Position numbers and translations under genes: made by a program. From Planotetraspora silvatica (lineage in GTDB: Bacteria; Actinomycetota; Actinomycetes; Streptosporangiales; Streptosporangiaceae): a stretch of DNA of 64,000 bases. Positions 1,823 to 37,404 of this stretch are shown here, one piece after another. The first letter of the stretch is position 1. The number at the start of each line of letters is the position of its first letter. The DNA is taken from assembly GCF_016863315.1 (NCBI RefSeq), contig NZ_BOOQ01000045.1, positions 1-64,000 on the forward strand, in the 5' to 3' direction. The notes below the pieces were generated by a model that worked only from the letters and a program-made list of their open reading frames with translations, was not told where the DNA came from and ran no database searches.

Positions 1823-3436
1823 ATGGCCGTCCCTCCCGTTCCGCAGGCTCGGACCGCTGTCATGGTCAAAGCCGTCCGCGTCCCTGTCTTCCTCGACGTC
1901 GTCGTCGGGCTGCTGACCGCGGTCGCGCTGCCCCTGGCGGTCGTCGCGATCCCCAACACCATCTCGATCGTGGCCGCGCTGCTGCCGCCGGACATCCCGC
2001 CCGTGTCGATGATGCGGGCGCACGGTCTGGCGTTGCCGGCGATGTTGCTGACGGTCCCGCTCGCGGCGATCGCCGTCCGGCGGTTCCGCGCGGCGCCGGT
2101 GCTGGTCGCCGGGCTCACGCTGCTGGCACTGGCCGACGTCGCCGGAGGCTACGCGGAGTCGACCTGGCTGGTCGGCGTCCTGCGGGTGCTCCACGGGATC
2201 GGCGCGGGCATGCTGGTGCCCGGCACGCTCGCGGCCGTCCTCGAGCGACCGCGGAAGAACGTCCTGCTGCCCATCTGGGCGGGCATGCTCGCGGCGAGCC
2301 TGCTCTCGGCGCAGGCCCTGGCCCTGTGGCCGCTCGACAAGGTCGAGTCGTGGCGGGTGACCCTCCAGCCCTATCCCCTGCTGACGGGGATCGCGCTGGC
2401 CCTCGCCGCCGCCTATCTCGTGCTCTGGCTGATCGGAGGCGACGCCGAGCGCGCCTCCGCGTCGTCCGACGACACGGCGGCATCCGCCGACCAGGACGCC
2501 GAGACCGCCACCGGGTCCACGGCCGCGCAGGGGGAGGCCGCGGGGAACCGGTCCACGCGCGTGGAGCGGGTCAGGCTCGCGCGTACGGCCGTGCCCTCCG
2601 CGGGCATCGCCGTCCTCGCGATCGGCATGACGTTCGACTGGTCGCCGAACCTCGTCGTCATCGCGGCCGCCCTGGCCCTGGTCGTGATGCTGGGACTCGT
2701 CGCGACCGGGACGTTCGACGAGCCGGGCGGGCGGACGCTGGCCTTCACCAACGTGGCGGTCGGGCTGGTCGTCCTGCCGACGGTGGCGCAGACCACCTAT
2801 CTCGAGCTGGGCGGGGTCGGCGGGCCGGGCCTGTCCGGGATCTGGCTGCCGTTCGTGCTGGCGGCCGTGGCCGCCGTGCTGGCCGCGCTCCTGGCCGGAC
2901 GCGCCCCGCTGTCGATGGTCTTCCGGCTCACCAACGGCGGTCTGGCCGTGGTCGTGGCCGGGCTCTGCGCGATCAGGCTGCTCGTGCCGCAGCCGTATGG
3001 TCCGCCGCTCGTGGTGCCGTTCGTCCTGCTCGCCGTCGGAGCCGCCGTAGCGCTGGTCAGCGCGCTCAGGCTCGCGGGCCAGGGGTCGGCGCTCCTCGGC
3101 CTGTCGCTGTGCGTCCCCGCCGTGATGGCGGGCTTCCTCCTCGGCTCGGGGATCCAGTTCCTCCTCCTCCAGGAGGTCAGCCGTTCCACCGATCCCAGTC
3201 AGCAGGCCGTCCTCGGCGGGTTCGTCGACGCGCTCCACACCGGGGCGCTGGCCGGTGGCTTCGTCGTGGTGGTCGTCATCGTGCTCGCGTCCGTCCTGGC
3301 ACGCCGGGACGCGGCCTCCGGCACGGCCTTCGCCCACGGCGGTGCCGTACGGGGTGAGCAGGTGGTGATCCCGGCTCCGACGCCTTCGCCCGAGGGGGAG
3401 GACGGCGCGACCGGAGAGTCGCTTACGGACCGGTAA
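1823..3436 (+). CDS. MFS-type polytopic membrane protein
   Basis: A 537-residue protein with roughly 12-14 predicted hydrophobic helices, resembling 14-helix major facilitator transporters. The stretch RVLHGIGAGMLVPGTLAAV near residues 120-138 resembles the MFS motif C region. A long hydrophilic, Asp/Ala/Thr-rich loop (about residues 208-250) divides the two halves. It lies between DUF4233 and ndk in the same direction and just 11 bp after the former, so it may share the transcript. ATG 1823 lacks a clear ribosome-binding site. ATG 1862 (MVKAVRVPVFLD) is an alternative that removes only the polar N-terminus. Substrate is unknown. Charged motif A of MFS carriers is weak, so the function as a transporter is inferred. 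Confidence 0.75.
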   Translation: MAVPPVPQARTAVMVKAVRVPVFLDVVVGLLTAVALPLAVVAIPNTISIVAALLPPDIPPVSMMRAHGLALPAMLLTVPLAAIAVRRFRAAPVLVAGLTLLALADVAGGYAESTWLVGVLRVLHGIGAGMLVPGTLAAVLERPRKNVLLPIWAGMLAASLLSAQALALWPLDKVESWRVTLQPYPLLTGIALALAAAYLVLWLIGGDAERASASSDDTAASADQDAETATGSTAAQGEAAGNRSTRVERVRLARTAVPSAGIAVLAIGMTFDWSPNLVVIAAALALVVMLGLVATGTFDEPGGRTLAFTNVAVGLVVLPTVAQTTYLELGGVGGPGLSGIWLPFVLAAVAAVLAALLAGRAPLSMVFRLTNGGLAVVVAGLCAIRLLVPQPYGPPLVVPFVLLAVGAAVALVSALRLAGQGSALLGLSLCVPAVMAGFLLGSGIQFLLLQEVSRSTDPSQQAVLGGFVDALHTGALAGGFVVVVVIVLASVLARRDAASGTAFAHGGAVRGEQVVIPAPTPSPEGEDGATGESLTDR

Positions 3437-3598
3437 GCTGCCGTTGCGCCGGCTCTGCCGTAGCACTGAGGCCTCGGAGAACGCGGCCGCCGGGAGATCC
3501 GGTGGCCCGAACGCGGGACATCCGCGGCCGAGGCCGTCTGTGCGACCGCGCGACCCTGCGCAACCATGTCACCGAGCACTTGAACGAGGAGAGAATCC

Positions 3599-4009
3599 GT
3601 GTCCGAGCGTACCCTTGTCCTGATCAAGCCGGACGGTGTCCGTCGTGGCCTCATCGGCGACGTCATCGGCCGCATCGAGCGCAAGGGCCTCACGATCGTG
3701 GCGATGGACCTGCGCACGCTCGACGCCGAGACGGCCAAGGCCCACTACGCCGAGCACTCCGAGCGCCCGTTCTTCGGGGAGCTGGTCACCTTCATCACGT
3801 CCGCGCCGCTGGTCGCGCTCGTCGTCGAGGGCCCGCGGGCGGTTGAGGCGTTCCGTGCGCTCGCCGGCCTGACCGACCCGGTGAAGTCGCCTCCCGGGAC
3901 CATCCGCGGCGATCACGCGCTGGAGATCGGCGAGAACATCGTGCACGGCTCCGATTCGCCGGAGTCCGCGGCCCGTGAGATCAAGATCTTCTTTCCGGAC
4001 CGTTTCTAG
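3599..4009 (+). CDS. ndk: Nucleoside-diphosphate kinase
   Basis: Transfers the gamma-phosphate between nucleoside tri- and diphosphates through a phospho-histidine. The 136-residue length is standard. The N-terminus [18 protein letters not shown], the central RPFF segment and the active-site region NIVHGSDS (His near residue 117) are all present, as is the C-terminal FFPDRF-type end. The GTG start is preceded by GAGGAGAG at a suitable distance. The gene has about 160 bp of upstream sequence without another gene and is followed by a strong intrinsic terminator, so it is probably a single-gene unit or the end of the folC cluster. Confidence 0.97.
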
Positions 4010-4020
4010 TCCTTGCCCCG

Positions 4021-4057
4021 CCTGAGGCCCCGGCCAAACCGGGGCCTCAGGTGTTTT
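4021..4057 (+). terminator. Intrinsic terminator after ndk
   Basis: A perfect 13-bp inverted repeat (CCTGAGGCCCCGG at 4021-4033 with its complement at 4039-4051, loop CCAAA) is followed by TGTTTT. It separates ndk from the mre cluster. Confidence 0.88.
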
Positions 4058-4203
4058 CCAAGGTGGTGGCACATCCCTGGCCCGGGAAGCGCAGATTTTC
4101 CCCGTGCCTGATAGCTCGATGTGCCCAGTCATGGGTACATCGCGTTACGATTCGAGTGCGATGCGTTATCCCGCCAACCACCTGAAGGAAGGCTTCCTTC
4201 CGC

Positions 4204-5235
4204 ATGGGCAGCAAGCTGACATTCCTGGGCCGTGACATGGCGGTTGACCTTGGCACGGCGAACACCCTGGTCTACGTGCGAGGGCGCGGAATCGTGCTCA
4301 ACGAGCCGTCCGTCGTCGCCATCAACGTCACTACCGGCAAGATCGTGGCGGTCGGGATCGAAGCGAAGCGGATGATCGGGCGCACGCCCGGCAACATCGT
4401 CGCCATCCGTCCACTGAGGGACGGGGTCATCGCGGACTTCGACGTGACCGAACGCATGCTGAGGTACTTCATCCAGAAAGTCCACAAGCGCCGGCACTTC
4501 GTCCGGCCCCGCATCATCGTGGCGGTTCCCAGCGGCATCACGGGAGTCGAGCAGCGCGCGGTGAAGGAAGCGGGATATCAGGCAGGAGCACGGCGGGTCT
4601 ACATCATCGAGGAGCCCATGGCGGCCGCGATCGGTGCCGGCCTGCCCGTCCACGAGCCCACCGGCAACATGGTGGTGGACATCGGGGGCGGCACCACCGA
4701 GGTGGCGATCATCTCCATGGGCGGCATCGTCACGAGCCAGTCGATCCGCGTCGCGGGCGACGAACTCGACGACGCGGTCATGTCCTTCGCGAAGAAGGAG
4801 TACTCCCTGATGCTGGGGGAGCGCACGGCGGAGGAAGTGAAGATCGCAATAGGGTCCGCGTACGCGCTGGGCGAGGATTTCCACGCCGAGATCCGCGGCA
4901 GGGACCTGGTGACCGGGCTCCCGAAGACGGTCGTCATCTCAGCCGAGGAGATCCGCAGGGCGACCGCCGAGCCGGTCAACGTGATCGTCGACGCGGTCAA
5001 GTCCACGCTGGACAAGTGCCCGCCGGAGCTCTCCGGTGACCTCATGGACAGGGGCATCGCCCTGACAGGCGGAGGCGCCCTGCTCAGGGGCATGGTCGAT
5101 CGGCTCAGGGAGGAGACCGGCATGCCGGTCCACCTCGCTGACAACGCGCTCGATTCGGTCGCGCTCGGCTCCGGAAGGTGCGTGGAGGACTTCGAGGCGC
5201 TCCAACAGGTCCTCGTCCAGGAGCCTCGCAACTAA
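4204..5235 (+). CDS. mreB: Rod shape-determining protein MreB
   Basis: Actin-like ATPase that forms membrane-associated filaments and organises wall synthesis, in sporulating actinomycetes mainly that of the spore wall. The 343-residue product has phosphate-1 motif [15 protein letters not shown] near residue 16, the hinge [15 protein letters not shown], phosphate-2 [14 protein letters not shown] near 158, and the adenosine motif [14 protein letters not shown] near 281. AAGGAAGG lies 9 bases before the ATG. It is the first gene of the mreB-mreC-mreD-mrdA-rodA cluster and is read independently of ndk behind the terminator. Confidence 0.97.
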
Positions 5236-23593: not shown

Positions 23594-23709
23594 GTCCGCA
23601 TGCTATGCCTCGTCGGCTGGGCGTGCGCGGGGCGGCGGATCCCCGGGAGGTGGCGCTGAGAGAGGGGTGGTGTCCGATTACTCCCGGTATGCAGGTTAGG
23701 GTCCGTCCC

Positions 23710-24321
23710 ATGAGAAATGGGGCTCCGACGCGGCGTCTCGGCATCATGGGCGGCACCTTCGACCCGATCCACCACGGGCACCTGGTGGCCGCCAGCGAGG
23801 TCGCCCACCACTTCGATCTGGACGAGGTGGTGTTCGTCCCGACCGGACAGCCGTGGCAGAAGGCCGAGAAGACGGTGTCCGCGCCTGAGGACCGCTATCT
23901 GATGACGGTGATAGCGACGGCCTCCAACCCGCGCTTCTCCGTCAGCAGAGTCGACATCGACCGCCCAGGCCCCACCTACACCATCGATACGCTGCGTGAC
24001 GTCGGGGCGGCGTACGGGCCGGGCGTGGAGCTGTACTTCATCACGGGTGCCGACGCCCTCGCCCAGATCCTGAGCTGGCGGGACGTCGAGGAGCTGTTCA
24101 CGATCGCCCACTTCGTCGGTTGCACCAGGCCCGGACACACCCTCCAGGACCCCGGCCTGCCCGACGGCAAGGTCAGCCTGATCGAGATCCCCGCCCTGTC
24201 GATCAGCTCCTCGGAGTGCCGCGAGCGCGTGGCGGACGGCCAGCCGATCTGGTACCTCGTCCCCGACGGCATCGTGCAGTACATCAACAAGCGCGGCCTC
24301 TACCAGGACGGCAATCACTGA
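23710..24321 (+). CDS. nadD: Nicotinate-nucleotide adenylyltransferase
   Basis: Makes nicotinate adenine dinucleotide from NaMN and ATP in NAD synthesis. The 203-residue product has [15 protein letters not shown] (nucleotide-binding HxGH motif, about residues 14-28) and the C-terminal [10 protein letters not shown] equivalent of ISSTxIR. ATG 23710 gives the family N-terminus; ATG 23689 in the same frame would add seven residues. The last 13 codons (from INKRGLYQ onward) coincide with a 40-bp sequence repeated twice downstream, so the 3' end of this gene is an integration target and may have been replaced by an element's copy. In actinobacteria nadD is normally close to rsfS; here about 12.7 kb lies between them. 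Confidence 0.96.
24282..24321 (+). repeat. att-like direct repeat 1 (nadD 3' end)
   Basis: The 40 bp ending in the nadD stop codon recur at 27354-27393 (one mismatch) and 31562-31601 (a few mismatches, stop TAG instead of TGA). The core GACCTCTACCAGG/GGCCTCTACCAGGACGG is shared by all three. All copies are in the same orientation, as expected for attL/attR sites left by site-specific integration into a gene's 3' end. Confidence 0.85.
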
Positions 24322-24763
24322 CGAGCGTGGATGGTGTGCCGGCAGAGATGCAGTCCGGTTCCTCGGAGATGCCAGCCGCGTCGGCAGCCGGGCGCCAGAT
24401 GCCGCTCCAGGTTCCTCGCTTGATCGGCGTGCCGCGTGAGGTCGTGAACACCAGGCCGGCGTCACGAAGCATCGGCCTACGCGGGTTGGTCCGATCCTCG
24501 ATCTGTATCAGCGCCGGCGGGAGCGCCGCCAGGTGCTCTGACAACGCAGCCAACACGCCATCAGAGAGGGGAATCGTCCTGAAACTCTTGGGTGTCTTGG
24601 GGGGTCCCAGATAGGCCACATTGCCCTTAGCCGAACTCGTGATCAACTGCTGCTCGACCCTAAGGACCTTGCGGCGAAAATCGATCTTTTCGACTTCCAG
24701 TCCGAAGATCTCCGATGGTCGCAGACCCGTTCCAACCGCCACCAGGGCAATAGACGACAGACG
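24322..24763 (-). pseudogene. Tyrosine recombinase (integrase) fragment
   Basis: An open frame on the minus strand encodes the middle of a phage/ICE-type tyrosine recombinase: VGTGLRPSEIFGLEVEKIDF holds the first catalytic Arg, and LGPPKTPKSFRTIPL the beta-hairpin Lys. VFTTSRGTPIKRGTW is also typical. The N-terminal arm-binding and core-binding parts are missing beyond a stop at 24764-24766. The frame runs into att repeat 1 without the HxLRH box or the nucleophilic Tyr. It is therefore truncated at both ends and not functional. Its place beside att repeat 1, reading toward nadD, is that of the integrase of an element inserted here. Confidence 0.8.
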
Positions 24764-25248
24764 TCAGCTCTTCCGAGGCGTTTCATTACTATGGCATCGA
24801 AATGCCGCATTCGATGAAGAAGCTGCGGCCAGCTCCGTTCATCGGAGCTGGCCTTTCTTGGCGAGCGGCTGCCGCGGCCTCGTAGTTCCACGCCGAGAGG
24901 CTCGCTTGCTCTGAAGTTCCTTCGACGTAGCCGCTCGTCGAGTGCGACCTCATGTCGCAGCAAGGTCCACATCCTTCGCTGGACATTCATGCCAGGTTTG
25001 CTCGCCATTAGGCGGGTCCGCGCACGATCGGCGTGATCGCTTCCCGCCGGGGAGAAGCGAAGGCCCAATTCCGCATCCTCACTTTTCCCGCTGATCGATT
25101 CATGCAGTCACAACCGAAGCGTTGGCGACACCTGCTCTGGTATCGACCACGCAAGGGAGATCCCAGCAGCCCAAATGGAGCGTTCCTTCACCGGTCTATC
25201 GAACACTCGAACATGCCGGCCCAAATCGATCTGATCAAGGAAGATCCC
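24764..25248. other. Non-coding or decayed stretch with hairpins
   Basis: I see no credible gene in these 485 bp. They contain the hairpin at 24827-24859 and a smaller one (GGCAT/ATGCC near 24793-24806). Lower GC than the flanking core and short, unmatched open frames suggest leftover sequence from a mobile element. The end of the stretch must hold the promoter of the RTX-type gene that starts at 25249. Confidence 0.5.
24827..24859 (+). terminator. Orphan intrinsic terminator in islet 1
   Basis: A perfect 11-bp inverted repeat (GGCCAGCTCCG at 24827-24837 with its complement at 24843-24853, loop TTCAT) is followed by TTTCTT. No intact plus-strand gene ends just before it, so the transcript it once served has probably been lost, or an unrecognised small RNA lies upstream. 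Confidence 0.75.
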
Positions 25249-27138
25249 ATGGGACGAATTCTTGTGAGGCCACGAAAAGCCGCCCAAGCGCTGGCGTTGG
25301 CCACGGCGCTGGCCACGACGATGGTGGTCCAGGCGGCTCCAGCGTCGGCCGCCGGAGGCCCCGACCTCGCGGCTGTCCGGAGCCTGCCCCTTCCGGTGGC
25401 AACGGTCTACCAGCCCGAATATATCGGCCCCAACTGGCTCTCATTCCTTACATCGGGGAGCCCCGATATCAGCGCCGACGGCAACGTTATCGGCTACACC
25501 GTGAATGGTCCTGGTGGCCGCTGCGACGTCGCGTCGTACGTGGTGAACCGGAAGACCGGAGAGACGAAGACTGTCGGTACCCCTGGTCCCACCACCACCA
25601 TCACGGATCTAAGTGAGAACGGCAGCCAGGCCGTCTATATCAAGGGATGCAATGGCAGCGACGGCGTCTACGTGCAGGATCTGGCGACGGATGTCGTCAC
25701 CCGGGTGGATGTGAGCAGCACCGGTCAACTGCCAGGCGGGTACCAATCCATTAGAGGGGTTGAGTTCGACGGGGTGCGTACCGTCGTGTTCGGATCATTC
25801 GCCACGGGTTTGGCCCCAGGCGCGCCGCTGAACATGGAAAACCTGTACCTCCACGATCTCGTGACCGGCGAGACCCAATGGCTCAGGGATCCTCAGGCCC
25901 CGATCAATTCCTTCGTCTACTCCGCTGCGGGGGTGAGCCCGGGTGGCCGGTACATCGCCTTCCTGTGGCGGGACCCGACGAATGTGACGGTCACGCTGTC
26001 GGTCTTCGACCAGGTCACCGGACGCTACTCCCGGGTCATCAGCACGCCCAACGCTTCGGCGATATGGACCTCCCCGTCCATCAGCAACAGCGGCAAGCTG
26101 GTGTTCGCCACCAAGGAACGGTTACTGCCGCAGGACACCGACAACCTGCCCGACGTCTATCTCCGGGATCTCGTGAGCGGGACGACCACATTGGTCAGCG
26201 CCGATGAGAATGGAGCGGCTGCTGGAACGGGCGCCGCACCGGAGATCACTGCCGACGGCAGGTACGTCGTCTACACGAGCCCGGGACCTGAATTCAAGCT
26301 GATGTTCCGGAATGTCATTACAGGGAGTCAGCGGGTGCTGACCGGCTTGGACGGCACTCCGCTGCAGTACCCCACCACGGACCCCGTTGAAGTCCCCTTC
26401 GTCAAGTTCGGTTTGTCCCGGACCGGCCGCTACCTCACGGTCCAGGCGAACGCCGAGAACGGGTTTCCGGCCATCGTCCTGCGTGACCAGGCTCAGGACT
26501 GTGCCGGTGACTTCGCCACGAGCACGGGCTCCGGCACCATCTACGGCTCGCCCGGGGACGATGTCATCTACGGTTCACCCGGCCCGGACACGATCTATGG
26601 CGGCTACGGCGGCAGCGACGTCATCTGCGGCATGGGCGGTGACGACACCATCGACGGCGGCCTCGGCGACGACGCCATCTATGGCGGCGAAGGCACCGAC
26701 CGGGTCGAAGGCAACGAGGGCAATGACGTGGTCGACGCGGGGTCCGGCGCGGACTCGGTGAACGGCGGCACCGGGACCGACGCTCTGCTGTATCGCTCGG
26801 CCACCGCCGGGGTGGACGTGAGCCTCAGCCGGGTGACTCCCAACGGGATGCCGGGCGAGGGCGATCAGGTCTTCAACGACTTCGAGGCGATCTTCGGGTC
26901 GGCCTACAACGACACGCTGAGCGGCCGTGAGACCGCTGAGTGGCTGTTCGGCCTGGGCGGTGACGACACGCTGCTCGGCATGGACGGCAACGACGAACTG
27001 TACGGCGGGGACGGCAAGGACGTCCTCGTGGGCATGGCCGGCGACGACTACCTCAATGGCGGACCCGGCTCGTCGAACTCGTGCGCCGGCGGCCCCGGCA
27101 TCAACACCTTCAACGACTGCAAATACATTTCCGGCTAG
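25249..27138 (+). CDS. Secreted beta-propeller protein with RTX calcium-binding repeats
   Basis: A 629-residue exported protein. The signal peptide is about residues 1-36 (basic N-terminus, hydrophobic ALALATALATTMVV, then APASAA). Residues 50-410 or so show PD40/TolB-like propeller units such as SPDISADGNVIGYTVNG and EITADGRYVVYTS. The C-terminal 200 residues hold hemolysin-type nonapeptide repeats (GSPGDDVIYGSPGPDTIYGG; later GGDGKDVLVGMAGDDYLNGG), which bind calcium and fold after secretion. ATG 25249 has AAGGAAG just upstream and places the signal peptide correctly. It is the only intact gene between att repeats 1 and 2. The function is unknown: a surface or matrix protein, or an adhesin, is more likely than an enzyme, since no catalytic domain is seen. 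Confidence 0.85.
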   Translation: MGRILVRPRKAAQALALATALATTMVVQAAPASAAGGPDLAAVRSLPLPVATVYQPEYIGPNWLSFLTSGSPDISADGNVIGYTVNGPGGRCDVASYVVNRKTGETKTVGTPGPTTTITDLSENGSQAVYIKGCNGSDGVYVQDLATDVVTRVDVSSTGQLPGGYQSIRGVEFDGVRTVVFGSFATGLAPGAPLNMENLYLHDLVTGETQWLRDPQAPINSFVYSAAGVSPGGRYIAFLWRDPTNVTVTLSVFDQVTGRYSRVISTPNASAIWTSPSISNSGKLVFATKERLLPQDTDNLPDVYLRDLVSGTTTLVSADENGAAAGTGAAPEITADGRYVVYTSPGPEFKLMFRNVITGSQRVLTGLDGTPLQYPTTDPVEVPFVKFGLSRTGRYLTVQANAENGFPAIVLRDQAQDCAGDFATSTGSGTIYGSPGDDVIYGSPGPDTIYGGYGGSDVICGMGGDDTIDGGLGDDAIYGGEGTDRVEGNEGNDVVDAGSGADSVNGGTGTDALLYRSATAGVDVSLSRVTPNGMPGEGDQVFNDFEAIFGSAYNDTLSGRETAEWLFGLGGDDTLLGMDGNDELYGGDGKDVLVGMAGDDYLNGGPGSSNSCAGGPGINTFNDCKYISG

Positions 27139-27163
27139 CCCTGACCGACACTAGACGGCGCAA

Positions 27164-27190
27164 GCGTCTCCCGGTGGTGCCGGGAGACGC
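27164..27190 (+). terminator. Hairpin after the RTX-type gene
   Basis: A perfect 11-bp stem (GCGTCTCCCGG at 27164-27174, complement at 27180-27190, loop TGGTG) lies 25 bp after the stop. No T tract follows. Confidence 0.7.
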
Positions 27191-27224
27191 AGCGCCATGT
27201 CCAATTGGCTTCGCATCGAAGAGG

Positions 27225-27318
27225 TCAGGGCACACCGAGGGCACATGACCACCAGAAACCGTGGACATCAACGAGAGACGTTGAAAGGCGAAACTACGGC
27301 CTGACCAGCATCGATCCG
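27225..27318 (+). repeat. Diverged 90-bp repeat, copy A
   Basis: Roughly three quarters of the bases match 32804-32898, beginning around GGGCACACCGAGGG and ending around CCAGCATCG. In this copy the short frame that starts at ATG 27245 (MTTRNRGHQRETLKGE) closes after 19 codons, whereas copy B stays open. This copy ends about 35 bp before att repeat 2, so it may mark the end of an ancient element. Confidence 0.6.
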
Positions 27319-27353
27319 TATCACGCCTGGTCAGGTGACCAGCGTGCGCGCTA

Positions 27354-27393
27354 CATCAACAAGCGCGGCCTCTACCAGGACGGCAACCACTGA
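27354..27393 (+). repeat. att-like direct repeat 2
   Basis: This is a copy of the nadD 3' end including its TGA, with a single difference from repeat 1 (AACCAC for AATCAC). Similarity continues for several bases beyond the stop (TGACCAGCG versus TGACGAGCG). It separates islet 1 (RTX-type gene) from islet 2 (ferric-reductase-like gene). Confidence 0.85.
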
Positions 27394-27533
27394 CCAGCGC
27401 AGGTGTGCGTCCGCTGGTAACGCTCCAGCACTCCGGTCCCTCCACCCCGCATGATCGACTCGGTGGTGTCCTCAGGGAGCGTCGACATGCGGCTTGATCC
27501 GGACGGATGATCAATAGGCGCCCGCAGGGTCGA

Positions 27534-28937
27534 TCAGAAGTCGAACTGCTCCAAATGAATGCGGCGATCAGGCACACCGGCGCGACGTAGGGCCTGCCGG
27601 GCCGCGGTCGTCATCCCGGCGGGACCGCACAGGTACACGTCGTGCATGGCCAGGCTGGGAATGAGGGCCCTCAGTGACCGTCCGGTCAGCGGTACGGCAC
27701 GGCCGCGCCGTGATCCGGGTGTCTCGTCGACGGTGTAAAGGACCTTGGCGCCCCGCGCTGCCGCGATGGCGTCCAGCTCGTTGCGCAGGATCAGGTCCTC
27801 GTCCCGGCGAGCCAGGTAGACCAGCGTCACCTGGCCCGGCAAGGTCTCGAAAAGCGCGCGCAGCGGGCTGATGCCCACGCCACCGCCCACCAGCAGCACC
27901 TGGGGACGCCGCCGGCGAGCCGCGGTCAGCGCGCCGTACGGACCCTCGGCCCACACCCGGACACCAGGCCGCAGACCGGCGAGTGCGCGGCTGTGGTGGC
28001 CGACCGCCTTTACGGTGATCCGCAGGAAGCGGGGGTTGGGCGGAGCGGATAACGAGTAGGGATTGGCGGTCCACCACAAGCCCCGAGTCAGGAATCGCCA
28101 GCGGAAGAACTGCCCGGGCTCGGCGCCCAGCTCGCGGAGGTGCTCGCCGATCAGATAGACCGACACCACGCCGGGCGACTCCCTGCGGATCTCGGCCACC
28201 GTGAGACGGTGACGCAGACCCCGGCGCACGGGCGTGAGGAAGCGATACCAGATCAGCAGGATGGCGGCAGACGCGTAAAGAGCCAGCCACAGGGCTGTGG
28301 CCAGTGGGTCGCCGAGGAAGTCCGGCCCGAGCAACTGGTGCCCGTACGCCAGAAAGATCCCGGCGTAGGTGACGAAATGCAGGTAATGCCAGAGCTCGTA
28401 GGGCAGCCGGCGCCGCACCTTCCGGACCGAGACGATCCCGACGCCGACGAGGAGCGCCAGACCGACCGTCGCCTCCGGCAACTCGGGCCCGTCCACGATC
28501 AGTCTCACGGAGCCGCCCAGCAGGCCCGCTCCGGAGCCGTCGATGCGGGCAGCGGTCGCGAAAACCATGTGCGCGAGCGAGAGCACGATCGTGTACCGGG
28601 CGATCACCGCGTGCCAGCGGGCCAGGCGGTCCGAGCCGATCCCCCGGTCCAGCAGCGGCGTCCGCGACACCAGCGTCACGAGAATCGCGCAGGCATATCC
28701 GGCGAGCAGGCCGGTGAGCCGGCCCGCCCAGGCGAGCCAGCCGTCCAGCCCGTTCACCGAGCCCATCCCCGACCAGCATCCGGAGGTCGCGGCGACGGCG
28801 CCTCCGGCGATCAGGATGAGCACGACCAGCGGATGCGCGTGCGGCGCCGCTGCCCGTTGAGGCATCCTGCGCCGCCTGGGCGCGGTGGGAACGGCTTTGC
28901 CGTCGTGAACGGGTCGCACGGCCGCGGCGTTCCTCAC
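27534..28937 (-). CDS. Ferric-reductase-like transmembrane flavoprotein
   Basis: A 467-residue membrane oxidoreductase. The N-terminal half has about six helices with His residues suited to two hemes (RWHAVIARYTIVLSLAHMVF and YELWHYLHFVTYAGIFLAYGH). The C-terminal half is a ferredoxin-NADP reductase module: FAD-binding NPYSLSA, and NAD-binding LLVGGGVGISPLRALFE with a terminal YLCGPAGM. It should move electrons from NAD(P)H across the membrane to an external acceptor. The GTG start overlaps the stop of the DUF305 gene (GTGA), so the two are translationally coupled. The usual FMN-binding periplasmic partner is not encoded nearby. The acceptor is unknown; metal ions are possible. Confidence 0.9.
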   Translation of the reverse strand: MRNAAAVRPVHDGKAVPTAPRRRRMPQRAAAPHAHPLVVLILIAGGAVAATSGCWSGMGSVNGLDGWLAWAGRLTGLLAGYACAILVTLVSRTPLLDRGIGSDRLARWHAVIARYTIVLSLAHMVFATAARIDGSGAGLLGGSVRLIVDGPELPEATVGLALLVGVGIVSVRKVRRRLPYELWHYLHFVTYAGIFLAYGHQLLGPDFLGDPLATALWLALYASAAILLIWYRFLTPVRRGLRHRLTVAEIRRESPGVVSVYLIGEHLRELGAEPGQFFRWRFLTRGLWWTANPYSLSAPPNPRFLRITVKAVGHHSRALAGLRPGVRVWAEGPYGALTAARRRRPQVLLVGGGVGISPLRALFETLPGQVTLVYLARRDEDLILRNELDAIAAARGAKVLYTVDETPGSRRGRAVPLTGRSLRALIPSLAMHDVYLCGPAGMTTAARQALRRAGVPDRRIHLEQFDF

Positions 28938-29551
28938 TGCCCGACGCCTTCGAGCCCGGTGAGCTCACCCGCGTGAGCCTCGGCCATCGTCGCGGCGAAC
29001 GCCTTGGTGTCCGCGTCGGCCCCCTCGTCCTGCTCTCCCTGCGCCACCAGCACGGACTGCCTGAGGAAGTCGCGCGCGTGCTGGGCGAAGAGCCGGTCGA
29101 ACGCCGCGCCGTCGGCCGCGTTGATCGCTTCGAGATCGGCCGCCGTCACCATGCCCGGCATGTTGTGTCCCTCGTGCACGTTCACGTACGGCACGCCTGA
29201 CCGGTCGAGCAGGCTGTGCAGGCGCCCCAGCTCGGCGCGATGCGCGGCGCCGAGGGTCATGGACAACGACACGATCTCCGGGTTGGAGGTCTTGTCCGGG
29301 GCCAGATCGAAGAGCCGCACGGCCTGCTCGGTCATCGGGATCATCAGTTGCAACCACGCGACGTCGGTCGCGTTGAAGGAGTCCGACGAGGTGACCGCTG
29401 GTGCCGGCGCGCCGCCCGGAATCGGCTGCACGGCCTGCGCCTGCGCTGCCAGATGGCTCGAATGGGCGGCCGGCCCGGCGGCGACGCACCGCGTGACGAG
29501 CAACACCGCGACCACTGCGAGGATCGGCGCACCGATCGTGCCCGCTCGCAT
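28934..29551 (-). CDS. DUF305 family exported protein
   Basis: A 205-residue protein with an N-terminal hydrophobic signal or anchor (IGAPILAVVAVLLVT) followed by an Ala/Pro-rich linker and a DUF305 four-helix domain. The domain shows VAWLQLMIPMTEQAVRLF, then HRAELGRLHSLL, and HARDFLRQSVLVAQGEQ near the C-terminus. His/Met-rich DUF305 proteins are often found with copper or redox genes. ATG 29551 is chosen because AGAGGAG stands just before it; a longer frame upstream has no signal peptide. It is the first gene of a two-gene unit with the ferric-reductase-like gene, suggesting that they act on the same metal or redox partner. Confidence 0.85.
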   Translation of the reverse strand: MRAGTIGAPILAVVAVLLVTRCVAAGPAAHSSHLAAQAQAVQPIPGGAPAPAVTSSDSFNATDVAWLQLMIPMTEQAVRLFDLAPDKTSNPEIVSLSMTLGAAHRAELGRLHSLLDRSGVPYVNVHEGHNMPGMVTAADLEAINAADGAAFDRLFAQHARDFLRQSVLVAQGEQDEGADADTKAFAATMAEAHAGELTGLEGVGQ

Positions 29552-29960
29552 GTCAGCTCCTCTCGCTAGGGCCGCTCGGATCTCGGAAGAAGCGAGGCCC
29601 AGATACGAGCGAACGCATGAGATCTCCTCACAAGCAGGCGACACCGGATCTGCTCGGTCTCAGACCGTGAGGCCATGACGAGAACGCTCTCCGTACAGAG
29701 AGTCCTTTCTTTATGGAGACGCTGTGGAGACTCGCCGAATCACAGAAAAATCGAGCCGAATGCGATTGGCAACGAACCACACGACATGGGAACGATCCAC
29801 AAAGACTCCCTGGGAACGCGACATCATTCCCTTGCGGAAATATGCCAGCCGTGATCTTTCGTGCGCCCAGCAGGACGGCGCTGACGACGTGACATTGCGG
29901 CGGATCTTTGTGTCCGTAAGCTCGTCGCCTGCCGGTGGAAGTCCCGTCCGGGTACCTCCA
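29552..29960. other. Intergenic region between the DUF305 and DUF1996 genes
   Basis: About 400 bp without a supportable gene. It should hold the promoter of the minus-strand DUF305 gene. The section 29700-29830 is less GC-rich than the surroundings. I see no clear operator or RNA element. Confidence 0.5.
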
Positions 29961-30001
29961 CCGTGCCGGTGACCCCGCGAATCGCGGAATCACCGGCACG
30001 G
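29961..30001 (-). terminator. Long hairpin after the DUF1996 gene
   Basis: A 12-bp perfect outer stem (CCGTGCCGGTGA at 29961-29972 with its complement at 29990-30001) encloses a second stem (CCGCG/CGCGG). It lies 20 bp after the minus-strand stop at 30022 and is well placed to end that transcript. Confidence 0.75.
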
Positions 30002-30021
30002 TCGTGCGAAGTGGGGATCGG

Positions 30022-31185
30022 TCAGCTGTTCCAGCCGGGGGTGGTGCCGCACTTGGCGTCCGCGTTGATGCAGATCTTCACCAGCGCGCCGAGCTTCTCC
30101 GGCTTCCATGCGTTCATGAAGTCCCCGTGCATCGAGGACGCCATGCCCGACGACAGCTTCAGGCCGTTACCGCCGAGGGAGTTGTAGCCGACCATGAGCG
30201 AGATGTTGGGGACCGCTACCGGATACTTGCCGGAGCACTTGCCGTTGGTGGCCGGCCCCATGTGCGACTTGTGGTCGGGCGAGTCGATGTGCTTGCCGTC
30301 CCAGCAGTCCTCGAACGTCACCTGACGAATCAGATTGCCGCCCTTCGCGCAGACCGGCCAGTTGCCGTCGGCGCTGCGTCCGATCTCCGCGCTGCCGGCG
30401 CACCAGAACTGGCCGGAGGCGCCCTTCGGCGTCGCCACCTGTCGCTTGGCGTCGCCGGTCACCATGACCAGACCCGGGGGGAACGGCACGACCGTCGACG
30501 GGTCCTTGAGCCGGGAGCCGTAGTACACGCGGAAGTTCTTCATTGGGACCGGCTTGCCGTCACGCAGCAGTTGCGGAACCCAGTAGGCGCTGTGGTCCCC
30601 GGGCGCGTTGCAGGTCGTGGGGCTCGTGAACAGCTTGGCCGGCGTGGTGGTGGCATTCACTTTCGGACCGAAGAAAGTGTGCATGTGGGAGGCGCCAGGC
30701 AGACCGGGCAGCACGATCGGGTCGTCCGCCGCCCGGGCGGACATCGAGCAGTCGGTGTGGAACTCGGGGACTCGCACGATTCCCGCGGGGACCTTCTTGG
30801 GTGCGACCTTGTGGTAGACGTCCAGGGCCTGCTTCCATGCGGCCTGGTTCACCGGCACCCAGCCGCCGCGAACGGCGCCGGCCGCCGCACTGCGCGACGG
30901 TGTCGGCGAGGACGGTGCCGACGGCTTGGGGGGCTTGGCCGACGTCGACGGCTTGGCCGGCGTGGACGGCGTGGCCGGCTTGGCCGGCGTGGACGGCGTG
31001 GACATTGCGGCCCCCGCGGCCGAGACGGTATCCGTATCGGTTGCTGACTCGAGACCGGTGGACTGGGACGAACCGGAGACGCCGGGGGGCGCCGCCTGGC
31101 TGTTGCAACCGGTGGTCAGGGCCACGGTGAGCAGCAGGACGGCAGCCACAGGTGGGAGTTTACTTACGCTGTTTTGCCAATTCAT
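30022..31185 (-). CDS. DUF1996 family lipoprotein
   Basis: Predicted lipoprotein of 387 residues. A signal sequence (PPVAAVLLLTVALTTGC) ends in a lipobox Cys near residue 27. A low-complexity Pro/Ser/Thr/Ala/Lys linker with repeated TPAKPATPS-like units spans about 45-105. The DUF1996 domain follows, with GLPGASHMHTFFGP, EDCWDGKHIDSPDHKSHM and GYNSLGGNGLKLSSGMAS. DUF1996 proteins occur in fungi and actinomycetes, sometimes beside carbohydrate-binding modules, but their activity is not known. ATG 31185 is preferred; GTG 31197 and TTG 31218 in the same frame would extend the N-terminus. It is a single-gene unit inside islet 2. Confidence 0.85.
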   Translation of the reverse strand: MNWQNSVSKLPPVAAVLLLTVALTTGCNSQAAPPGVSGSSQSTGLESATDTDTVSAAGAAMSTPSTPAKPATPSTPAKPSTSAKPPKPSAPSSPTPSRSAAAGAVRGGWVPVNQAAWKQALDVYHKVAPKKVPAGIVRVPEFHTDCSMSARAADDPIVLPGLPGASHMHTFFGPKVNATTTPAKLFTSPTTCNAPGDHSAYWVPQLLRDGKPVPMKNFRVYYGSRLKDPSTVVPFPPGLVMVTGDAKRQVATPKGASGQFWCAGSAEIGRSADGNWPVCAKGGNLIRQVTFEDCWDGKHIDSPDHKSHMGPATNGKCSGKYPVAVPNISLMVGYNSLGGNGLKLSSGMASSMHGDFMNAWKPEKLGALVKICINADAKCGTTPGWNS

Positions 31186-31561
31186 CGAGGGGCGCACCTT
31201 TCTCTCGGGGAGGAACAATACAGCCCCGTGACCCTCTCTTTGGAAGGTAATGGTTAGGTCTACTTCGACCCACCCGCATTGCGTCCGACCTGCCGCGTCA
31301 GTCCGATGTACTTTTCCTTAAATTCTCAAAAAACTGTTATCCGACGATGATCCAGAGCGTCAGCACAATTGCCGGTTCCTTTGACTCGCAGGACAGTCCG
31401 ACGTACGCATTGGACGGGCGCACCTTTTCGTTCGAGCGCGTGCTGGCCGCGCCCGGGACGTCGTCTGGCGGCATTGGGTCGACTCGGACCTGCTGGCGTC
31501 CTGGGGCCCCGCCGCCGATGACGGTCACCGACTGCGCTCTCGAGCCGCAGGCGGGCGGGCG
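31186..31561. other. AT-richer spacer before att repeat 3
   Basis: About 375 bp hold the promoter region of the DUF1996 gene (relatively AT-rich near 31230-31340) and then sequence leading into att repeat 3. An open plus-strand frame that ends in the repeated nadD tail is an artefact of the repeat. No gene is supported. Confidence 0.5.
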
Positions 31562-31601
31562 CATCAACAAGCGCGACCTCTACCAGGACGGCAACCACTA
31601 G
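31562..31601 (+). repeat. att-like direct repeat 3
   Basis: The third copy of the nadD 3' end encodes INKRDLYQDGNH in one frame and has TAG in place of TGA. It differs from repeat 2 by a Gly-to-Asp codon change and the stop. It is the right-hand border of islet 2. Confidence 0.82.
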
Positions 31602-32803: not shown

Positions 32804-32898
32804 GAGGGCACACCGAGGGGCGCATGACCGTCGAAAACCGCGGAGAGCAGCGAAAGCCATTGAAAGTCGAAATCGCTGCCTGGCCAGCATCGTTCCTG
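32804..32898 (+). repeat. Diverged 90-bp repeat, copy B
   Basis: Partner of 27225-27318. Here the frame starting at ATG 32824 (MTVENRGEQRKPLKVEIAAW) stays open for about 110 codons but runs into the TraB-like gene in another frame, so only the first 40-50 codons could be genuine. It may be the remnant of a small gene of unknown function. Confidence 0.55.
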
Positions 32899-34125: not shown

Positions 34126-35298
34126 TCAGAAGACGACGCTGTGCGCTCCGCCACCGGAGATGGAGACGATCCCGATGCGGCCGGTCCGGATGCCGACGGG
34201 AACGGTGCGGTTGGTGGTGCTGCCGTCGCCGAGCTGACCGGAGAGGTTGTCTCCCCAGGTCGTGACCGGTCCGGCGCTCGGGTAGGCGAGGCTGTGGAAA
34301 TTGCCCGCGCTGATCAGGGCGATCCCGGTGAGGCCGAGGACGGCCACCGGGGCAGACCGGTTGGTCGTCGTCCCGTCGCCGAGCTGGCCGGAGCTGTTCA
34401 GGCCCCAGGAGCGGACGGTGCCGTTCGTCAGCAGGGCCAGGCTGTGGAAGCCGCCCCCTTCGACGGCCTGCACGTTGGTGAGGGCGAGAACGCTCACCGG
34501 AACCGTGCTCATGGTGTTCGTCCCGTTGCCGAGCTGGCCGAAGTCGTTGCGCCCCCAGGACCGTGCGGTGCCGTCCGTCCGTACGGCCAGGCTGTGGAAC
34601 CCGCCTGCGGCGATGGATCGGACGGCGGTCAGGCCGGAGACCGCGACGGGGAGCGAGCTGCTGATCAGCGTGCCGTCGCCGAGCTGGCCGAAGACGTTGG
34701 ACCCCCAGGTCCGGACGGTGCCGTCGGACAGGAGCGCCATGCTGTGGTCGATGCCCGCGGCGATGGCGACCACGCCCGTGAGGTTGAGGACCGGCACGGG
34801 AAGCGCCCTGTCGATGTTCGTGCCGTCCCCGAGCTGGCCGTTGTCGTTGTTCCCCCAGGCCATGACGGTGCCGTTGGACAGCAGCGCGAGGCCGTGGTTG
34901 GCGCCCGCGGCGATCGCGCGGACGCCGAGCAGGTTCGCCACGGTGCCGGGCGTGGAGTGGCCGACCCCGCTGCCGTCGCCGAGTTGGCCGTCGCTGTTCA
35001 GCCCCCAGGCCTCGACGGTGCCGTTCGTCAGTAGCGCCAGGGTGTGAGACTCCCCGGCCGACACCTGCGAGACGTCGGCGCCGGTCTCCCCGGCCGCGGT
35101 CGCCGGCGTGTGCCGTTCGTTCAGTGTGGCGTCGCCGAGTTGGCCGGAGCTGTTGAGGCCCCAGGCCTTGACCCGGTCGGTCGGCGCGGCCGAGGCCGGG
35201 CACGCGCCCAGGGTCACGACCATGGTCACGAGCGTCACCCCGATTCCGGCGGCGGCCCGGCGCGCCCAGGCGGTGGGCGCAACGGAAAGCGAATGCAT
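34126..35298 (-). CDS. Secreted RCC1-repeat beta-propeller protein
   Basis: A 390-residue exported protein. The signal peptide is about residues 1-37 (RRAAAGIGVTLVTMVVTLGA, then PASAAP). The rest is seven RCC1 units of about 50 residues, each with a version of WGxNxxGQLGDGT (for example AWGLNSSGQLGDA, SWGRNDFGQLGNG and TWGDNLSGQLGDG) and an AGxxHSLAL element. Seven blades close a complete propeller. No enzyme domain or wall anchor is visible, so the protein may bind a ligand or partner outside the cell. ATG 35298 (MHSLSVAPT) is preceded by GGGGGA. The DNA repeats are near-identical in places, which allows blade number to change by recombination. Confidence 0.88.
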   Translation of the reverse strand: MHSLSVAPTAWARRAAAGIGVTLVTMVVTLGACPASAAPTDRVKAWGLNSSGQLGDATLNERHTPATAAGETGADVSQVSAGESHTLALLTNGTVEAWGLNSDGQLGDGSGVGHSTPGTVANLLGVRAIAAGANHGLALLSNGTVMAWGNNDNGQLGDGTNIDRALPVPVLNLTGVVAIAAGIDHSMALLSDGTVRTWGSNVFGQLGDGTLISSSLPVAVSGLTAVRSIAAGGFHSLAVRTDGTARSWGRNDFGQLGNGTNTMSTVPVSVLALTNVQAVEGGGFHSLALLTNGTVRSWGLNSSGQLGDGTTTNRSAPVAVLGLTGIALISAGNFHSLAYPSAGPVTTWGDNLSGQLGDGSTTNRTVPVGIRTGRIGIVSISGGGAHSVVF

Positions 35299-35490
35299 AG
35301 ATCCCCCGAAGAACACACATGGAGATTCGCCGGGACTGCGCATCACGCGCCTCCGGCGTACCCGAGATGATCAGGACGGTACCAAAGGCGCCTGTGACCA
35401 GCGGGGACGCGTGAAGTCGCTCGCGTGCCGCGTCCTAGGACGGTTCGAGCCGCCTGCGGAGCCTCCGGGGGAGGAGCCTCAGCGCGGGCG

Positions 35491-36750: not shown

Positions 36751-36999
36751 CCCCAACCCCGCCGATCTAGGACATATGTAATATCGGGGCACTTTACCGA
36801 TATGACCTGGGCCGCCACCCACCGGGCAGGAGCTCCAAGCCGGAATCGGTGGTCACCGCTACGCGTTGAAATGTCTACGCCTGGGGATAACTCGGGATTG
36901 TCGGCGTGTCCCGATAGGGTCACTCCGGGAAACAGGTTGTGGGGACCACCATGGAGTGGGCACCCTGGAGATGCCGTCAAAGGAGGACAGAGCCGCATC

Positions 37000-37404
37000 G
37001 TGACCGCATCTGAGAGATCAATACAGCTGGTGAAGGTCGCAGCCGAGGCCGCCGCTGAGAAGCTGGCCGACGACATCATCGCCTACGACGTGAGCGACCA
37101 GCTCGTCATCACCGACGCGTTCCTACTCTGCTCCGCGTCCAACGACCGTCAGGTCCGCGCCGTGGTAGATGAGATCGAGGACCGCCTGCGCATCGAGGCC
37201 GACGCCAAGCCGGTTCGCCGGGAGGGCGAGCGGGAGGGCCGCTGGGTGCTCCTCGACTACCTCGACATCGTGGTGCACGTCCAGCACGAAGAGGACCGCA
37301 CCTTCTACGCCCTGGAGCGGCTGTGGAAGGACTGCCCCTCGATCCCGCTTCCGGAGAGCGTCACCCAGGTGGCCGCCCAGCGCTCCCGCGGGGCTGGTCA
37401 GTGA
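37000..37404 (+). CDS. rsfS: Ribosome silencing factor RsfS
   Basis: Binds L14 of the 50S subunit and blocks subunit joining in starvation. The 134-residue product has LADDIIAYDVSDQLVITDAFL followed by CSASNDRQVRAVVDEIEDRL and the C-terminal RWVLLDYLDIVVHVQHEEDR, all characteristic. It starts at GTG 37000; AGGAGG at 36981-36986 is somewhat far (13 nt) but is the only candidate. In most actinobacteria this gene follows nadD closely, so its position here shows where the core genome resumes. The stop falls inside the first unit of an 18-bp repeat. Confidence 0.95.
   Translation: MTASERSIQLVKVAAEAAAEKLADDIIAYDVSDQLVITDAFLLCSASNDRQVRAVVDEIEDRLRIEADAKPVRREGEREGRWVLLDYLDIVVHVQHEEDRTFYALERLWKDCPSIPLPESVTQVAAQRSRGAGQ

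Follow-up and report, generated by a model that had tools for sequence, protein, structure and literature searches.

The 3' end of nadD, an essential gene of NAD synthesis, can with high confidence be regarded as the attB, or attachment site, used by a tyrosine integrase clade of Streptosporangiaceae, and behind the gene lie stacked elements that have decayed. The analysis concerns a stretch of 64,000 nucleotides from the soil bacterium Planotetraspora silvatica, here called the window. An earlier note, made from this sequence alone, had proposed that nadD is the attachment gene of two tandemly accreted islets that have lost their integrase. This role of nadD is very likely because an unoccupied site, element ends, an integrase clade and sister elements with repeated gene tails were found. 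Both parts of the proposal, nadD as attachment gene and accretion with loss of the integrase, are supported. The gene and its repeated tail lie in the window as follows.

23605..24321, + strand: nadD, proposed attachment gene, NCBIfam nicotinate-nucleotide adenylyltransferase
24280..24304, + strand: first copy of the core: left attachment site (attL) of islet A (40-bp repeat at 24282-24321)
27352..27376, + strand: second copy of the core: right attachment site (attR) of islet A, also the left end of islet B (40-bp repeat at 27354-27393)
31562..31601, + strand: third copy, a truncated and mutated core fused to the shortened right end of islet B

The copies of the 40-bp nadD tail start at 24282, 27354 and 31562, copy 1 being the end of nadD. 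Copy 2 differs from copy 1 at one of 40 bases, and copy 3 from copy 2 at three of 40 (one inside the core, plus TAG for TGA). Self-BLAST of a 21-kb stretch gave E = 8e-16 for copies 1/2, 2e-10 for 1/3 and 2e-11 for 2/3; therefore the repeats are not due to chance. Sequence comparison and self-BLAST thus confirm the three copies with few mismatches that had been reported. The repeats are real, but the unit of 40 bp does not stand: the stretch common to five Planotetraspora genomes, the window's genome included, is only the 25-bp core TACATCAACAAGCGCGGCCTCTACC, with one mismatch in two far copies. This core encodes YINKRGLY, the conserved end of NadD; the last residues of the protein (QDGNH and the stop) fall outside it, and the sequence 3' of it varies among the genomes. 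The three 40-bp repeats are integration scars, and copies 1 and 2 are a true left and right pair.

The strongest single result is that the presence/absence difference for islet A falls precisely at the core. Its flanks, joined at the core, align with the sister genome G004 over 1025 of 1025 bases at 98.4% identity and with no gaps. G004 has an exact unoccupied site, with islet B straight after nadD and no islet A, and the tail that follows nadD in G004 is borne by copy 2 in the window. The precise presence/absence polymorphism at a repeat that marks an integrative element is therefore seen for islet A against G004, and direct repeats of the target gene end are found at both ends in islet A and in G003, G004, G001 and G341. 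Islet A keeps both cores and its right arm pair; the left arm pair and most of the integrase are absent.

24368..24742, - strand: tyrosine integrase remnant, middle of the catalytic domain, reading towards nadD; C-terminus and left arm pair lost
25213..27138, + strand: cargo of islet A, a protein bearing RTX calcium-binding repeats; the longest ORF spans 25033-27138
27226..27245, + strand: right arm pair CAGGGCACACCGAGGGCACA of islet A, 126 bp before the core
27301..27309, + strand: conserved CTGACCAGC, 42 bp before the core

Comparison of nadD loci with and without the insert in related genomes, as the earlier note had advised, showed that insertion polymorphism exists. The region behind nadD differs among the five Planotetraspora genomes. 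In G003 a 3.9-kb islet is bracketed by two copies that are 98% matched over 62 bp, the islet behind nadD in G001 measures 0.8 kb, and G002 has a left end with an integrase stub at nadD; no second core was found in the 13 kb read behind nadD in G002, where it lies on another contig. The MFS/rsfS region is met again further on in four genomes, and in G002 is absent from the 13 kb read. In the window the variable stretch between nadD and rsfS also encodes, at 34126-35346, a protein of seven RCC1 repeats (150-bp DNA repeats).

36802..37404, + strand: rsfS, on the far side of the variable region; in G341 rsfS closely follows nadD

Two core copies are present in 5/5 Planotetraspora genomes versus 6 of the 336 other family genomes. 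Among these six, the same arrangement was established for G341 alone, a member of another genus, in which nadD is followed by 280 bp including an element end, the second core and then rsfS. In G261 and G262 the second core lies more than 400 kb away and its start is different, and in G098 the copies are on two contigs with no arm pair nearby. The two tails of G341 differ (QKKGA versus REVRP before the stop), as expected if the element supplied the near tail; in G003 and G001 near and far tails are alike, and the delivered copy cannot be told there.

The copies point in one direction and all lie within 7.3 kb of nadD, as they would if the nadD tail had been duplicated locally with no recombinase involved. 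However, the far copies are preceded by a common element end and not by nadD sequence, the arrangement recurs in G341, and integrase remnants abut nadD in three genera; a duplication taking in more of nadD, which had been named as evidence against insertion, was not seen. Local duplication is therefore given almost no credence, and site-specific integration at nadD is the reading followed below.

Two features mark the right ends: a pair of GAGGGCACA-like sites at 126 bp, and CTGACCAGC at 42 bp, ahead of the core. Such an end is common to the window, G003, G004, G341 and G000:C8, another contig of the window's own genome, and CTGACCAGC stands exactly 42 bp before the core in 5/5 of them. Allowing two mismatches, six of the 11 right-type ends examined have the arm pair at -126 or -125, namely copy 2 of the window, G003 and, away from nadD, G000:C8, G239, G129 and G238; it is absent in copy 3 of the window, G004, G001, G341 and G002:C3. 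At left ends the pair, under the same threshold, is found at +71 from the core start in four of eight (G003, G002, G069, G243) and is absent in the window, G004, G001 and G341; on our reading of the frame it lies in G003 inside the last integrase codons. Among 30 nadD loci, an arm pair with up to four mismatches occurs within 400 bp of the core only in G002 and G003, and four positions in 235,630 scanned on one strand reach this threshold, true sites included.

A search of 341 genomes for the element-end pattern with up to three mismatches gave matches in 20, and the reversed control matched 24, so three-mismatch matches mean little alone. Nine of the 21 places were credited, having 0-1 mismatch or a visible element end: G000 (two), G003, G004, G001, G341, G239, G238 and G129. 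Two others (G206, G282) are nadD itself, and the remaining 10 were put down to chance. In the stretches read, no nadD adjoins the core-bearing right ends of G000:C8, G238, G239 and G129, which counts against the proposed integration at nadD.

32805..32896, + strand: relic of another element right end, without a core

The end in the window's own genome (G000:C8:32602-32767, L127) is near IS21- and ISL3-type transposase genes, and the tail after its core is not that of nadD. A similar arm-pair end in G002 (G002:C53:40550-40614, L129) lies beside sequence resembling a tRNA 3' end, in which ARAGORN detected no whole tRNA; this hints that a related integrase uses a different target. A second direct-repeat pair in G238 (L176, 8915-8972 and 11805-11861) brackets an integrase fragment and has an arm pair about 121 bp before its right copy; it may mark a further element built to the same plan around a different core.

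The truncated tyrosine recombinase that had been noticed at the first copy is real: window positions 24284-24742 (- strand) match Pfam Phage_integrase with E = 4e-10 over profile positions 31-126 of 172. G003 keeps the integrase C-terminus and G002 a stub, so that remnants lie against nadD in three Planotetraspora genomes, and they do so in two other genera. With 12 candidates scored in each of 341 family genomes, the best integrase matches outside Planotetraspora were in G069 (62%) and G243 (58%), and both abut nadD; by our reading, that of G069 has a complete-looking catalytic domain and lacks the N-terminus. In a tree of 17 rows and 123 columns, for which the G002 stub was too short, the four nadD-side rows formed one clade (91/91), recovered in 90% of 200 bootstrap trees, with 0 of 500 shuffles as low. 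Support for the clade is moderate. The expectation that related integrases would be found at nadD elsewhere is thus borne out by the G069 and G243 remnants, and such remnants next to nadD outside Planotetraspora suggest repeated use of this insertion site.

Only remnants are present at nadD, and no intact nadD-side integrase was seen in the 341 family genomes with 12 candidates scored per genome; a contig scan of close relatives returned only the Planotetraspora remnant in G003. Searches with the window remnant revealed no intact nadD element in phages (best listed identity 29.9%) or plasmids (best listed identities 35-42%, partial matches), nor was a nadD element found with the G131 integrase, one of the sister enzymes described below, whose best identities among the matches listed were 30.6% in plasmids and 32.0% in phages. 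None was seen in IMG/VR either, where eight contigs have an exact arm pair: in L169 an integrase adjoins two pairs, in L172 the integrase is more than 2 kb off, and the other six of the eight gave no integrase match.

Islet B carries three predicted cargo genes.

27534..28937, - strand: ferric-reductase-like protein
28934..29644, - strand: DUF305 protein
30022..31218, - strand: DUF1996 protein

The view that copies 2 and 3 bound islet B as a clean element is not supported, as its right part in G004 (about 760 bp, with element end and core) is missing from the window, where the right end of the islet is joined directly to a core without its first bases. Copy 3 is read as a deletion scar and not as a clean attachment site, because the TA and the element end found before copy 2 are missing. 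Islet B is 97.8% identical to its counterpart in G004, 97.7% in G002 and 97.3% in G003, and the nadD-side flanks are 95.4%, 89.9% and 89.2% identical, respectively. Since the islet exceeds the flank in identity, it has moved recently between species. It follows nadD in the window and G004, whereas G002 and G003 have it at other loci, with flanks that are unlike between the two; in G001, genes about 82% identical to those of islet B are split over two contigs. The left end of the G002 and G003 copies has the core or part of it with a QDGNH tail, which differs from the nadD tail of those hosts.

How islet B spread is evenly balanced between this integrase and mainly homologous or illegitimate recombination, with the link to the core being passive. 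The copies away from nadD have imprecise ends, starting about 24 bp before the core in G002 and inside it in G003 and ending at different places, and the genes beside them also occur in different surroundings in other genomes, which agrees with recombination of the latter kind. Because of these differing surroundings, no clean unoccupied site for them was obtained in G002 or G003. Against it, islet B in G004 is flanked by a full core on one side and by a core-bearing right end on the other, and the G003 junction is inside the core, where the integrase would be expected to cut.

Two genes were also noted. A phosphotransferase (APH-family) gene in G003 (G003:C35, L128, 8242-9252) has counterparts of 96-97% identity in all four of the remaining Planotetraspora genomes. 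Its context in G003 differs from each of theirs, G000 and G004 having one context in common; the shared sequence stops no more than about 50 bp from the gene, and end repeats are not visible. A gene for a peptidoglycan-binding-domain protein beside the ectopic islet B (G002:C3, reverse strand 3415-4633, L132) is about 91% identical in G004 and G000, whose copies have the same surroundings as each other, unlike that of G002:C3.

For the elements at nadD we infer strand exchange at the core, a role for the arm pair, and an order and agents of loss, as follows. The nadD 3' end would serve as attB for the Streptosporangiaceae integrase clade. A circular element would recombine within the 25-bp core, supplying its own last codons and stop; the essential gene would stay whole, and its former tail would move to the far end, behind the duplicate core. 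Repeated integrations would stack elements behind nadD. Islet A, lying between nadD and islet B, would most simply be a later insertion, with its loss from G004 also possible, and would afterwards have been reduced to an integrase fragment with no left arm pair; islet B would have lost its right end by the deletion that formed copy 3.

Present mobility, in cis or in trans through the remaining cores and the integrase of another element, is a different matter. Islet A retains both cores and the right arm pair, and islet B is found, at 97-98% identity, in loci of three kinds, but islet A has no left arm pair, islet B has no right end, and other integrase matches in the window's own genome are at most 40% identical to the remnant. 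The suggestion of elements still mobilisable like CIMEs (cis-mobilisable elements), which keep both attL and attR, is accordingly considered very improbable. Islet A looks dead, its left arm site and most of its integrase being lost, as does islet B, whose right end is lost. Very likely nadD is a recurring attachment site with a recognisable integrase clade, of which the window shows fossils.

Among 12 other integrases examined, nine are end to end with a convergent protein gene: yajQ (DUF520) in five cases, and genes for ThiD, a helicase, an aldehyde dehydrogenase and a response regulator in one each; those of G092, G009 and G052 are not. A second gene tail was found 6-11 kb away in four of seven checked: yajQ in G131 (6.4 kb, E = 1.5e-4) and G012 (10.4 kb, E = 0.007), thiD in G138 (11.1 kb, E = 5e-11) and the helicase gene in G082 (9.1 kb, E = 3e-5). 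By itself the G012 match is weak (G349 has an internal match with E = 0.002); it relies on a perfect arm pair located 125 bp ahead of it. In G131 a perfect pair precedes the second tail by 123 bp, and in G082 a variant pair does so by about 126 bp. No second yajQ tail was found in G349, nor within about 9 kb in G212. RepSA is encoded in G131, G012 and G138, an FtsK-type protein in G012 and G138, and a GntR/UTRA regulator in G131 and G138; G082 carries a phage capsid protein.

With repeat loci left aside, a tRNA-Tyr gene lies within five of these loci (G235, G212, G131, G012, G349) and was considered as the target. It was rejected because the gene abutting the integrase end in all five is yajQ and a second yajQ tail is present in two of three yajQ elements (G131 and G012, not G349). 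The G082 element (G082:C25, L208), at the helicase gene 3' end with its integrase, an AAA protein and the capsid protein, is possibly a phage satellite.

The balance of probability leans slightly towards an actinobacterial integrase family specialised in the 3' ends of conserved protein genes (nadD, yajQ, thiD and the helicase gene) with one attP plan, in which the right arm pair is about 126 bp before the core, the left pair is within the last int codons and the core changes with each gene. If so, these elements would form a retargeting series made by nature, in which the C-terminal end of an essential enzyme would be rewritten again and again by insertion. AICE-like or satellite-like parents are the probable origin of the elements at nadD, a step that stays inferential because no gene of these kinds was found there.

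The nadD site adds to the bacterial attachment genes one with a searchable signature, consisting of the arm pair, its fixed spacing and the 25-bp core, and the sister elements at yajQ and thiD offer natural material on change of target gene with the same arm sites. Insertions at nadD would explain the variable gene content behind it in Planotetraspora and part of the variation of the NadD C-terminus.

Several known systems resemble these elements. The sister integrases recall pSAM2-type AICEs, since they occur in RepSA elements, two with FtsK-type proteins (PMC3218068, PMC9513070). According to the available text of these papers, outside the pSLS subfamily tRNA genes serve as target for most tyrosine integrases of AICEs (PMC3218068), and accretion and protein-gene targets such as rlmN have been described (PMC9513070); that text contains 0 mentions of nadD and yajQ. 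The window islet ORFs scanned include no AICE genes (RepSA or Prim-Pol, FtsK-type transfer). No report of nadD as an attachment site was found in the literature searched, mostly outside subscription papers. Many attB sites lie in protein-coding genes, and nadD may be listed in the large attB database described in the accessible part of PMC12884075. The loss of integration and transfer genes and the stacking at one target gene are shared with CIMEs and tandem accretion, as far as described in the available text of PMC5704250; CIMEs keep attL and attR, whereas in the window neither islet keeps both ends complete. The closest precedent found is PAISt of Streptomyces turgidiscabies, which according to the available text of PMC4057263 is an actinobacterial island at the 3' end of a protein gene (bacA), where three copies of the gene tail delimit two modules and a tyrosine recombinase lies at one end. 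PAISt is 674 kb long and has an 8-bp palindromic core, an active integrase and demonstrated excision, whereas the nadD relics are 3-4 kb long, with a 25-bp core and no active integrase. The mechanism is ordinary for integrative elements; new are the target gene, the integrase clade and the apparent attP plan common to several protein genes.
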